From positions 1-64,000 of the forward strand of contig NZ_FYEK01000002.1 in the NCBI RefSeq assembly GCF_900187885.1: a stretch of DNA of 64,000 nt, given 5' to 3'. The notes beneath the pieces were generated by a model. That model was given only the letters and a program-made list of their open reading frames with translations, made no database searches and was not told the DNA's origin. How positions within the stretch are numbered: position 1 is the first letter of the stretch; each line of letters opens with the position of its first letter. Made by a program: the position numbers and the translations under genes. Positions 42,293 through 46,509 of the stretch are shown here, piece by piece. The stretch comes from Thermoflexus hugenholtzii JAD2 (GTDB taxonomy: Bacteria; Chloroflexota; Anaerolineae; Thermoflexales; Thermoflexaceae).

Positions 42293-44500
42293 ATGAGCAT
42301 GCGCTGGGGAGTGCTGGCAACTATACCGCTGACATTCTGGGTTACGCTGGCCTTGATGCCTCCTGAGCTCGCTCAGATCGATGAGAAGCATGTGCTCTGG
42401 CAGGCTTCCTCTTATGGGGTGATCGAGATCGCCCGCAATCTGACGCGGGACAGCCATCCCCCACTTTATTACTGGCTGGTCCATTTATGGTGGGAGATGA
42501 GCGGCTTTGACCGGCCTTATGCCTATCGGGTGCTTTCTATCCTCCTGGGACTGACTGCGCTCCCGTTGGCTTTCCAACTCGGCAAGCAAGCGGCGGGGCC
42601 CCGCGTCGGGATGTGGGCCGCTATTCTGCTCGCTTTAAATCCCTTTTTCATCTTCCAGCTTTTCCTGATCCGTATGTATGGGAGCGTGATCGCCCTGGGC
42701 GCTGCATCGACATGGGTATGGTTGCTCTTGCTGCGGCGCCCCTCCCCCCGCCGGTGGTTGATATGGATCATCCTTCAGGGGGCTCTGCTGTTCATCCACT
42801 ATTACAGCGTTCTGCTGCTTCTTGCACAGATCTTGATCCTCGGGCTTTACCGCCCCCGGGGCTGGCAGGTCGGGCTGACGCTCTCCACGCTGTTGTGGAG
42901 CGCCTTCGGGTTCTGGCTCCTTTGGGCCTATCCTGGAAGCCTGGAAAACACGGTGCGCAACCTTTCGGCGATCCCGGTGCGACCTCGGCCCTGGGAGGTC
43001 CTTGAGCACTTCTGGGCCAGCTGGCTAACCGGCCCTCTGAGCGATGGACACTTCGCCCGAGCAGCGGGGCTGGCCACCGCGCTGGGAGCTCTCGCCGTGT
43101 GGATATGCAAAGAGCCTCGGAAACGAGCTCCTCTCCCTGTTCAATGGCGACTGATCGGGATGGTTTCGTGGTTGCCCCTGGCGATGGGAGCCGGAATCGC
43201 ATTGCGATGGCCCTTCTTCGGTGCAAGATACTTCGCGATGGTCCTTATCCCTTTCCTCGTGTGGGTCATCACCCCGATTGCGCTTCGAGCGCGGTGGTTT
43301 GTCATAACCTTCCTCGTGCCGGGCCTGATCAGTTTGCCTGCAATGCCCCTTATCCAGAGCTTCCCGGATGCCGGGGATACGAAAGAGATCGCAGCCATGC
43401 AAATCCTTGGGGGCGAGGACCCCATTCTGATCCAGGCCTGGTGGCATTCTCTTTGGCCAGAGTATCCAAGATTCCGCTCTTACGACTGGAATGATCCCCG
43501 TCAGCGTGCCATCGTCCTTTCACAACACCCATCCTTCTGGTTCATCGGGGTAACCCTCTACCGAGGTAATTGGGAGGAGTGGGTCACCGATCTCCAGCGG
43601 ACTCACACCGTTGACTTTTACACGGAGATCGACCACTTCGTCCCCGAGCGTCGAGCGACCGTCATTCACTTCACCCGAAAAGCCCAGCCCGTCCGTTGGG
43701 ATCCATTCACTGTCAGATGGGAAAACGGATTACAGCTCCAAGCGATCGGCCGGATCGATGAAAGCGCCAAACCCGGTCATCCGCTCCGCATCGCCCTTCG
43801 CATGAGCACAGATCGTCCCCTCACAAGCCGATGGACGCTCTTTCTGCACCTGGTGGATGAGCATGGCCAGCTTTGGTCAAATTGGGATGCAGAGCCGGAG
43901 CCTGGAGTCCAGCACTGGGCTCCCGGTCAAACCATTGAAGTGCATCGCAGCCTGTTGATCCCTCTTTACACACCTCCCGGCAGGTATCGGCTTCAGATCG
44001 GCTGGTATCCGACCGGAGCTCCCGGATTTCCCAGGCTTCCTCTGGAGGGAGGTGCCAGCGATTCTCTGATCATCGGAGAGATAGAGGTCCACCCGCGCGT
44101 TGATCCCGCGCGTGTCGGGAGCCTCTCTGCCGGCCCCGTAGAAGTAGAACCTCCTGTAGCCCGCATGGTCCAAGGTATCGATGGGTGGCGGCTGGAAGTT
44201 CAGGTGCGCTGGCGCAGTCGGAGCTATGCCCGCGTCTCAGGATGGCAAGTGATGCTGCGCACCCCTGATGGATCCATACCTCTGCAACGCGCATATCGAA
44301 TTCCAGATGCCACAGTGGTAACGCCGGGATGGCTTACAGAGATCTGGATCAGTCCCCCGCTTTCGGGCACCCGACCTGCTTTGAGCGTTTTAGAGATTCT
44401 CTACGAAGGCCATCGCATTATAGGGCGCCCTGTATGGATTTTCCCGGCTGACACGGGCTGGGTTTATGGATGGGTGTTCCTGAATCGCTTTCCACGCTGA
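42293..44500 (+). CDS. GT39/ArnT-like membrane glycosyltransferase, relative of 40003-42258
   Basis: 735 residues, ATG 42293 after GGAGGGA at 42278-42284. The first loop has LAQIDEKHVLWQASSYGVIEIARNLT with Asp-Glu, then DSHPPLYYWLVHLWWEMSGFDRPYAYRV and LFLIRMYGSVIALGAASTWVWLLLL, as in GT39-like enzymes. A luminal part (FWFIGVTLYRGNWEEWVTDLQRTH) and the terminal module (LRIALRMSTDRPLTSRWTLFLHLVD ... TPPGRYRLQIGWYPTG) follow. Its tail YGWVFLNRFP matches the tail of the previous gene. Third codon positions look more AT-rich than in neighbouring genes, which may reflect a different history or weaker codon selection. It is the last gene of the cluster; the metG promoter starts two bases after its stop. 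Confidence 0.8.
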   Translation: MSMRWGVLATIPLTFWVTLALMPPELAQIDEKHVLWQASSYGVIEIARNLTRDSHPPLYYWLVHLWWEMSGFDRPYAYRVLSILLGLTALPLAFQLGKQAAGPRVGMWAAILLALNPFFIFQLFLIRMYGSVIALGAASTWVWLLLLRRPSPRRWLIWIILQGALLFIHYYSVLLLLAQILILGLYRPRGWQVGLTLSTLLWSAFGFWLLWAYPGSLENTVRNLSAIPVRPRPWEVLEHFWASWLTGPLSDGHFARAAGLATALGALAVWICKEPRKRAPLPVQWRLIGMVSWLPLAMGAGIALRWPFFGARYFAMVLIPFLVWVITPIALRARWFVITFLVPGLISLPAMPLIQSFPDAGDTKEIAAMQILGGEDPILIQAWWHSLWPEYPRFRSYDWNDPRQRAIVLSQHPSFWFIGVTLYRGNWEEWVTDLQRTHTVDFYTEIDHFVPERRATVIHFTRKAQPVRWDPFTVRWENGLQLQAIGRIDESAKPGHPLRIALRMSTDRPLTSRWTLFLHLVDEHGQLWSNWDAEPEPGVQHWAPGQTIEVHRSLLIPLYTPPGRYRLQIGWYPTGAPGFPRLPLEGGASDSLIIGEIEVHPRVDPARVGSLSAGPVEVEPPVARMVQGIDGWRLEVQVRWRSRSYARVSGWQVMLRTPDGSIPLQRAYRIPDATVVTPGWLTEIWISPPLSGTRPALSVLEILYEGHRIIGRPVWIFPADTGWVYGWVFLNRFPR

Positions 44501-44501
44501 G

Positions 44502-44530
44502 TTGTTAGAACGTCGAGATCCCGTTAAAAT
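44502..44530 (+). promoter_or_regulatory. Promoter of the metG leader
   Basis: TTGTTA (44502-44507), 17-bp spacer, TAAAAT (44525-44530). Predicted start is near 44537, so the transcript has a leader of about 200 nt before metG, holding a small open frame and hairpins. Being upstream of a terminator, it implies conditional transcription of metG. Confidence 0.7.
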
Positions 44531-44557
44531 TTAGGGAAAGACCAGAAGGGGTCTGAC

Positions 44558-44617
44558 ATGCATTTGCGAGAAGAGGAGCGGATGATGAGGAGAGAATCCC
44601 CGCGGTCGGGGGCCTGA
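44558..44617 (+). CDS. Putative 19-residue leader peptide with tandem Met codons upstream of metG
   Basis: ATG 44558 to TGA 44615-44617 encodes MHLREEERMMRRESPRSGA. A weak ribosome site (GAAGGGG) lies in the loop of a small hairpin before it. Two adjacent ATG codons (44582-44587) lie upstream of the hairpin, and the stop codon is exactly the three-base loop of that hairpin. Next come an alternative pairing partner and an intrinsic terminator, then methionyl-tRNA synthetase. This is the arrangement of leader-peptide attenuators in which slow translation of control codons prevents termination. Only two internal Met codons are present, so coincidence cannot be excluded. Confidence 0.45.
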   Translation: MHLREEERMMRRESPRSGA

Positions 44618-44661
44618 GGCCCCCCCGACTGCCGGGTGGGTTTCGCCCGCCGACCGCCGGC
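44599..44661 (+). promoter_or_regulatory. Mutually exclusive hairpins in the metG leader (attenuator logic)
   Basis: Hairpin A pairs 44599-44614 with 44618-44636 (long GC stem with small bulges, loop TGA). Hairpin B, the candidate antiterminator, pairs GCCGGGTGG (44631-44639) with CCGCCGGC (44654-44661), one G bulged and one G-U pair. B shares bases with both A (44631-44636) and the terminator 5' arm (44654-44661), so A plus terminator, or B alone, can form. A smaller stem (44635-44640 with 44646-44651) is a further alternative. Confidence 0.45.
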
Positions 44662-44678
44662 CTCGGCCGGCGGTTTTT
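44654..44678 (+). terminator. Intrinsic terminator before metG
   Basis: CCGCCGGCC (44654-44662) and GGCCGGCGG (44665-44673) form an 8-9-bp GC stem followed directly by TTTTT and GTTT. It lies 58 bp before metG and downstream of the metG-side promoter, so it can attenuate metG as well as end transcription from the glycosyltransferase cluster. Confidence 0.85.
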
Positions 44679-44736
44679 GTTTCAGGGTTCCGGAACGAGA
44701 GACGCCAAGACCCTTCACGCGATCCGGAGGTGCTCA

Positions 44737-46509
44737 ATGGCGGAGAAGGTGCTGGTGTGCGTGGCTTGGCCCTACGCTAACGGCCCCCTGCATCTCGGGC
44801 ATATCGCCGGCGCTTACCTGCCGGCGGACATCTTCGCCCGCTACCACCGCCTGAAAGGAAACCAGGTCCTCATGGTCTCCGGTTCGGATTCCCACGGGAC
44901 CCCCATCACCGTCCAGGCGGATCGGGAGGGGATCTCGCCCCGGGAGCTGTTCGAGCGCTATCATCGGGTCTTCCTGGAGACCTGGCAGAAGTACGGCATC
45001 TCCTTCGATCTTTTCACCCACACTGACACGGAGAACCATCATCGGGTCTCCCAGGACATGTTCCTGCGCCTGTTGGAGAACGGCTATCTGTTCCGGCAGA
45101 CCCAGCGCCAGTTCTACTCGGAGGTCTCCCGTCGCTTCCTTCCTGATCGCTACATTGAGGGCACGTGCCCGATCTGCGGCTACGAGCGGGCCCGGGGGGA
45201 CCAGTGCGAGCGATGCGGGACGTTGCTGGAGGCCACCCAGCTCATCCATCCCCGCAGCCGAATCGACGGCAGCACCCCGGTGCTGCGGGAGACGGAGCAC
45301 TATTTCTTCAACCTGCCGGCTTTCACCGAGCCGCTCCTGAACTACCTCCGGGACAAAGGCTACTGGCGCCCCAACGTCCTGACCTTCACCCTGAACTACA
45401 TCCGCCAGGGCCTCCAGCCCCGTCCCATCACCCGCGACCTGGACTGGGGCATCCCGGTCCCCCTGGAGGGATTCGAGGGGAAGGTCCTCTACGTCTGGTT
45501 CGAGGCCGTCATCGGCTACCTCTCCGCCACCATCGAGTGGGCCGCCCTGCAGGGCCGCCCTGAGGCCTGGAAGGACTGGTGGTATGATCCGGCGGCGAAG
45601 ATCGTCTATTTCATCGGAAAGGACAACATCCCCTTCCACACCATCATCTGGCCGGCCCAGCTGATCGGCACCGGCCGCCTCTATGAGGAGGACCCGTCCC
45701 GGCGCTTCACCCTCCCCTACGACGTCCCGGCCAACGAGTTCCTCAACCTGGAGGGGGACAAGTTCTCCACCAGCCGCAACTGGGCTGTGTGGGCCCTGGA
45801 CGCCGCATCCCGCTACGCCGTGGACGCCCTGCGGTATTACCTGACGGCGATCATGCCGGAAACCCAGGATTCGGAGTTCCGGTGGATCGATTTCATCCGC
45901 CACAACAACGAGGAACTCCTCTCCATCTGGGGTAACCTGGTCCATCGGGTGCTCACTTTCGCCGCCCGCCATTTCGACGGCCAGGTGCCCATGCCCGGCC
46001 GGATGGAACCGCGCGACGCCGAGGTCCTGGCCCGGGTGGACGTCTCCTTCGAAACCGTGGGGCGCCTGATCGAGGGCTGTCGCTTCCGACAGGCCCTGGA
46101 GACGGTGATGGGACTGGCCGCCGAGGTGAACCGCTACCTGAACGAGCGGGAGCCCTGGAAGGAGATCCGCGAGGATCGAAACCGGGCGGCCACCACCCTC
46201 TACGTGGCCATGCGGGCCATCGACAGCCTGAAGATCATGTTCGCGCCCTTCCTTCCCTTCTCCAGCCAGCGGGTCCACGAGATGCTCGGCTACGAGGGAG
46301 ACCTGGTGGGGCGGCTGACGGTGCGCGCGGTGGCCGAGCGGACCCGGGAGCACCTCGTCCTCACATACGAGGCCGACCCGCGGATCCGCTGGGAGCCCAG
46401 CCGGCTGACACCCGGCCAGCGCCTGAGGGAGATCCGCCCGCTGTTCGAGAAGATCGATGAGGGACGCGCCGAGGAGGAACGGGCTCGCCTGGGCCAGCCG
46501 ACGGCATAG
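44737..46509 (+). CDS. metG: Methionyl-tRNA synthetase
   Basis: 590 residues from ATG 44737 behind GGAGGTG; the frame extends to 44677 through the terminator region and is not used. Class I signatures are HLGH (residues 19-22 in NGPLHLGHIAG) and KFSTS (342-346), a variant of KMSKS. A zinc knuckle of four cysteines is in TCPICGYERARGDQCERCG near 145-163. GSDSHGTPITVQA and FIGKDNIPFHTIIWPAQLIG are MetRS segments, and the C-terminal helical anticodon domain follows (FAARHFDGQVPMPG onward). No C-terminal tRNA-binding OB domain is present, so it ends shorter than the E. coli enzyme. It charges tRNA-Met for protein synthesis. Confidence 0.97.
   Translation: MAEKVLVCVAWPYANGPLHLGHIAGAYLPADIFARYHRLKGNQVLMVSGSDSHGTPITVQADREGISPRELFERYHRVFLETWQKYGISFDLFTHTDTENHHRVSQDMFLRLLENGYLFRQTQRQFYSEVSRRFLPDRYIEGTCPICGYERARGDQCERCGTLLEATQLIHPRSRIDGSTPVLRETEHYFFNLPAFTEPLLNYLRDKGYWRPNVLTFTLNYIRQGLQPRPITRDLDWGIPVPLEGFEGKVLYVWFEAVIGYLSATIEWAALQGRPEAWKDWWYDPAAKIVYFIGKDNIPFHTIIWPAQLIGTGRLYEEDPSRRFTLPYDVPANEFLNLEGDKFSTSRNWAVWALDAASRYAVDALRYYLTAIMPETQDSEFRWIDFIRHNNEELLSIWGNLVHRVLTFAARHFDGQVPMPGRMEPRDAEVLARVDVSFETVGRLIEGCRFRQALETVMGLAAEVNRYLNEREPWKEIREDRNRAATTLYVAMRAIDSLKIMFAPFLPFSSQRVHEMLGYEGDLVGRLTVRAVAERTREHLVLTYEADPRIRWEPSRLTPGQRLREIRPLFEKIDEGRAEEERARLGQPTA

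Follow-up and report, generated by a model that had tools for sequence, protein, structure and literature searches.

In Escherichia coli, the pheST operon is controlled by an attenuator that consists of a leader peptide (PheM) with Phe codons, an antiterminator and a terminator, and that responds to tRNA charging. The attenuators of the trp, his and leu systems have the same layout and govern biosynthesis operons. T-boxes (RF00230) perform the same task by another route, that is, they sense uncharged tRNA to antiterminate synthetase genes. In bacilli, a leader peptide with His codons replaces the T-box before the synthetase-family genes hisS and hisZ, an example from outside the Proteobacteria (PMC2965389). 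According to Naville and Gautheret (2010), leader-peptide systems had, to their knowledge, been shown only in Proteobacteria and Actinobacteria before the hisS case, ermC aside (PMC2965389); the main text of that paper contains no mention of Chloroflexi or methionyl. A survey of Actinobacteria did not detect any conserved regulatory RNA structure for Met operons (PMC1262725). A search of the open-access literature for a methionine-reading leader-peptide attenuator, or for any leader-peptide attenuator in Chloroflexota, did not yield one.

The DNA analysed here (the window) is a stretch of 64,000 nucleotides from Thermoflexus hugenholtzii JAD2, in which metG is preceded by a leader that is very probably a transcription attenuator of the classical leader-peptide type, which reads Met as its control codon and targets metG. 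Like pheST, the locus combines a leader peptide containing cognate codons, a predicted antiterminator and a terminator ahead of an aminoacyl-tRNA synthetase operon. It differs from pheST in the amino acid (Met instead of Phe), the gene (metG) and the phylum (Chloroflexota, pheST being from the Gammaproteobacteria), in that the predicted antiterminator strand can alternatively fold into the hairpin that encloses the stop codon of the leader, and in that many members of the class appear leaderless. The layout is also that of the trp, his and leu attenuators, and in one leader from another family (L015) the segments resemble trp 1:2, 2:3 and 3:4; here, however, a synthetase gene would be governed, with Met as the control amino acid. 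The hisS/hisZ leaders read His in Firmicutes, whereas the metG leader would read Met in Chloroflexota, and unlike in a T-box, sensing apparently proceeds via a translated peptide.

The metG leader in Thermoflexus

All features of the leader lie on the forward strand. A promoter (TTGTTA-17-TAAAAT) can be read at 44502–44530, with the −35 box at 44502–44507 and the −10 box at 44525–44530; TTGNNN and TANAAT, spaced by 17–18 nt, also precede the leader at four other loci of the genus (L010, L011, L012 and L014). The Shine-Dalgarno-like sequence AGAAGGGG (44544–44551) presumably serves the leader ORF at 44558–44617, which starts with ATG at 44558, encodes the 19-residue peptide MHLREEERMMRRESPRSGA and ends with TGA at 44615–44617. 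The putative control codons are the doublet ATG ATG (Met-Met, 44582–44587), which is conserved in the genus, and enrichment of Met extends class-wide. Folding places a hairpin, H1, at 44602–44632 (stem 44602–44614/44618–44632), which would compete with the antiterminator; the TGA constitutes its entire 3-nt loop, so that the stop codon lies in the loop exactly as the preliminary description had it. The intrinsic terminator (44652–44682; stem 44652–44661/44666–44675, T-run 44674–44682) is invariant in the genus, and besides it and H1 the leader contains a second hairpin. The metG gene itself, encoding methionine--tRNA ligase (NCBIfam NF001100 and TIGR00398, both above cut-off), extends from 44737 to 46509, with its Shine-Dalgarno sequence GGAGGTG at 44726–44732 and its ATG at 44737. 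The promoter, the 19-codon frame, the Met-Met codons and the terminator ahead of metG, all named in the preliminary description, are thus directly legible, and three of the parts by which an attenuator of this kind is recognized are present: a short ORF with a Shine-Dalgarno sequence and a promoter (translation is predicted), Met control codons and a terminator. Folding gave −80.9 kcal/mol for the leader versus −64.5 kcal/mol for dinucleotide shuffles (z −3.98). A DNA search for a second copy of the leader in the same genome found none.

Eight other genomes of the genus were compared, and a metG match was obtained in seven of them. Met codons, hairpin and terminator are present at all eight same-genus loci (the window plus the seven). 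The leader peptides are MHSHEEGRMMRRDPSRSGA (identical in L009 and L048), MTFTPIVSPLMMRRFASRSGA (L010), MKPARAVFPPMMRRSVSRSGA (L011), MLPVPMPIMRRRPQRSGA (L012), MIQAGAILQAIAPMMRRCPQRSGA (L013) and MLSIATPMMRRCH (L014); the last one stops earlier, ahead of H1. The N-terminal halves are unrelated in sequence and length, and conservation starts at the Met codons, which appear as MMRR or PMPIMRR. In L012 one ATG of the doublet has been lost, and another ATG is found two codons farther upstream. In L010–L014 the sequence preceding the leader is not recognizably that of the window, yet the leader stays with metG; the leader unit therefore belongs to metG. Several hundred extra hairpin-rich bases, possibly a mobile or repeat element, lie between the leader terminator and metG in one genome (G005, L013).

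The preliminary description had predicted that in related genomes the frame would be neither absent nor broken, that the clustered ATG codons would be kept while other codons vary, and that the stems would covary. The frame is intact in 8 of 8 genomes, with the earlier stop of L014 noted above, and the alignment of the region before metG bears out the retention of the ATG cluster amid varying codons. Covariation of the stems did not materialize: none of the three structures has compensatory changes within the genus, in which the stems hardly vary, and the antiterminator strands are paired in 93.6% of cells across the genus, again without compensatory change. Since the terminator is invariant and compensatory changes are absent, covariation neither supports nor refutes the structures. 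The attenuator interpretation of the preliminary description is supported, strongly so by the conserved Met clustering; compensatory changes within the genus were not seen, and the specific antiterminator helix is probably a different one.

Predicted antiterminator pairing and proposed mechanism

The antiterminator had been placed at 44631–44639, pairing with 44654–44661. This pairing exists but is weak (−11.7 kcal/mol), and the preferred computed fold has a longer one, between 44600–44613 (strand 2, which is also the 5′ side of H1) and 44645–44660 (strand 3, which overlaps the 5′ arm of the terminator), with −27.4 kcal/mol as a duplex. The folding calculations indicate that the helix was probably misassigned; weak in the window and incompletely paired across the genus, the shorter pairing was rejected as the main antiterminator and is kept as an alternative only. 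With the RNA of the window free from 44600 onwards and the 3′ arm of the terminator not yet made, the antiterminator reaches −45.2 kcal/mol versus −38.1 kcal/mol for H1, these and all other folding energies being computed for 37 °C although the genus Thermoflexus is presumably thermophilic. L009 and L010 also favour the antiterminator (P of 0.96 and 0.95, respectively). In the equilibrium folds of L011–L014, H1 or the originally described pairing is favoured, with P of 0.05–0.33 for the antiterminator.

Two comparisons across leaders bear on the proposed switch. In 10 of 21 leaders (p<0.05 each), the segment that begins behind the last Met codon and ends slightly beyond the stop shows stronger pairing with the 5′ arm of the terminator than shuffles do; the combined Fisher value of 3e-8 is optimistic because some of the 21 leaders are related. 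In addition, the probability that the 5′ arm of the terminator is tied up was computed for the moment before the 3′ arm exists, using an assumed ribosome footprint of 15 nt. This probability averages ∼0.6 when the ribosome sits on the Met codons and 0.31 when it has reached the stop (Wilcoxon p 0.001, 27 leaders); in the window the two values are 0.72 and 0.41. The contrast is sharpest in L070, L074–L076, L085, L090, L101, L105 and L106; it is absent or reversed in L011–L014.

The mechanism that we propose is as follows. Transcription would start shortly before 44558, and a ribosome would translate the 19-codon leader. When Met-tRNA is plentiful, the ribosome would reach the stop at 44615 and cover about 44600–44630, thereby blocking the antiterminator; the terminator at 44652–44682 would then fold and metG would be mostly off. 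When charged Met-tRNA is scarce, the ribosome would stall at the Met-Met codons and leave 44600–44613 free to pair with 44645–44660, which would occupy the 5′ arm of the terminator and allow RNA polymerase to continue into metG. In this model, the position of the transcription start, the stalling of the ribosome, the sequence of folding events and the direction in which metG responds are inferred.

Met-rich leaders across the class

For a wider comparison, 101 regions upstream of metG were collected, mostly from Chloroflexota and with metagenome bins as the majority of the relatives; 92 of these regions are non-redundant. ORFs of 8–60 codons were counted and Met was scored in stretches of 8 codons, with dinucleotide shuffles as the null. 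At least 3 Met per 8 codons were found in 15 of the 92 regions versus 0.8±0.9 in shuffles; a threshold of 4 Met was reached by 4 regions versus 0.0. The enrichment of Met has a z of 15.8, the next amino acid being Phe with a z of 4.0 (at least 3 in 8 codons). The signal is present in 13 of 63 cases in the 350 nt preceding metG, whereas six neighbouring intervals gave 0–1 of about 60 and the antisense strand 2 of 63.

In principle, the terminator could be the ordinary one of the upstream gene, followed by metG with an unregulated promoter, and the short ORF could be there by chance. The upstream ORF ends at 44500, about 150 nt ahead of the terminator, a distance compatible with such a role, and a GC-rich hairpin can be conserved without having a regulatory function. 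However, the promoter and the leader ORF sit between the upstream gene and the terminator, the leader accompanies metG in L010–L014 although the preceding sequence is unlike that of the window, and the clustering of Met is far above chance and specific to the stretch before metG. We thus consider an ordinary terminator combined with a chance ORF highly improbable.

Attenuator-like leaders of different families have different sequences and the same succession of leader, predicted antiterminator and terminator. The leaders of L015, L088 and L096 contain MMM and those of L075 and L076 contain MPMRMP; other Met-rich stretches are MAMPM (L056), MSMKMDMM (L090), MAMRTMRMEM (L070) and MPMRMWM (L105). 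Twenty-six Met-rich leaders were picked by Met content, irrespective of terminators, and an intrinsic terminator between leader and metG was found in 25 of them; that of L024 was recognized by eye. Many metG genes of the class are without such a leader in the upstream region that was fetched. A −10 box is located 4–10 nt ahead of the leader ATG in 12 of the 26 (background 3.9%, p 6e-11); in L024, L026, L056, L070, L074–L076, L098, L099, L101, L105 and L106 the spacing is 6–9 nt. From this position of the ATG just behind the −10 box, many Met-rich metG leaders seem to be leaderless, with translation starting at or near the transcription start.

T-boxes and a second type of metG leader

The metG leader was compared with Rfam at E values up to 10. 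It has no match to the T-box (RF00230) or to covariance models of the SAM family, and the only hits, to sroD, mir-557 and Chloroflexi-1, are sub-threshold and chance-like. Elsewhere in the genome there are seven T-box matches (L001–L007), with scores below the Rfam gathering cut-off; leaving L004 aside, the genes behind them are trpS, valS, trpE, pheS, ilvE and thrS. Two SAM-I riboswitches precede metK and a gene of the cystathionine-gamma-synthase family. Within the window, a TPP riboswitch lies at 1611–1741 on the forward strand, above the Rfam gathering score.

That the leader RNA is highly structured, and that T-boxes and SAM riboswitches do occur elsewhere in the Thermoflexus genome, would suit a tRNA- or metabolite-binding RNA (a T-box, a SAM riboswitch or an unknown riboswitch) in which the ORF is irrelevant. 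Such an RNA is extremely unlikely given that T-box and SAM families go unmatched even at an E of 10 and that, beyond the genus, the Met-rich ORF persists in RNAs of different sequence. With T-box matches before other synthetase genes and none at metG, this genome appears to use T-boxes as sensors for several amino acids and the leader peptide as the sensor for Met-tRNA.

A second, unrelated leader peptide, absent from the window, occupies the same position before metG in other families (L020, L028, L033, L034, L036, L037, L052–L054, L060, L066, L152–L161 and L164–L189). It has the motif R-x2-[STV]-A-A-[KT]-G-x-M-[GR]-[GA], and these leaders carry a G-run hairpin directly after the ATG. A degenerate DNA pattern of the motif matched in 26 of 294 genomes, once in each, and 23 of the 26 matches are located 77–312 nt upstream of metG. 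The reversed control pattern gave 8–9 matches, which puts the 3 matches elsewhere at chance level; with an earlier, stricter pattern all matches (10 of 10) precede metG. The codons of the conserved R and A residues vary synonymously, indicating that selection acts on the peptide. A terminator was not found in 14 of 18 leaders of this type. In L034, L037, L052 and L054 the motif is not in a short ORF of its own but at the C-terminal end of a long upstream ORF, which on visual inspection resembles a glycosyltransferase. Judged from these sequences, the second leader type looks like a nascent-chain sensor and is a candidate arrest peptide.

In the Met-rich leaders, too, the nascent chain in the exit tunnel (Met-Met-Arg-Arg or M-x-M-[RP]) might be the sensor, with free methionine or SAM as the signal in place of tRNA charging. 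M-x-M-[RP] indeed recurs in several families, in line with this possibility, and a conserved peptide motif such as nascent-chain sensing leads one to expect is present in the second type of metG leader. The Met-rich peptides (MMRR, MMMPR, MAMPM, MSMKMDMM, MPMRMP), however, share little beyond the content and spacing of Met, a pattern more in keeping with control codons than with a fixed arrest motif, and we regard nascent-chain sensing by the Met-rich leaders as unlikely. For the Anaerolineae-type metG as a whole, the chances appear evenly balanced that two unrelated leader peptides control the gene, one being the Met-codon attenuator and the other the R-x2-[STV]-A-A-[KT]-G-x-M-[GR]-[GA] peptide, which would probably arrest the ribosome upon methionine, SAM or Met-tRNA. 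If so, the second motif would define a new arrest peptide, specialized for an aminoacyl-tRNA synthetase.

The apparently leaderless leaders would offer a clean place for studying the coupling of transcription and translation in Chloroflexota. If the attenuator model is correct, attenuation by tRNA charging would extend to a new amino acid and a new phylum, and a single genome would rely on T-boxes for some synthetases and on a leader peptide for another, so that it could be tested how one type of sensor takes the place of another in evolution.
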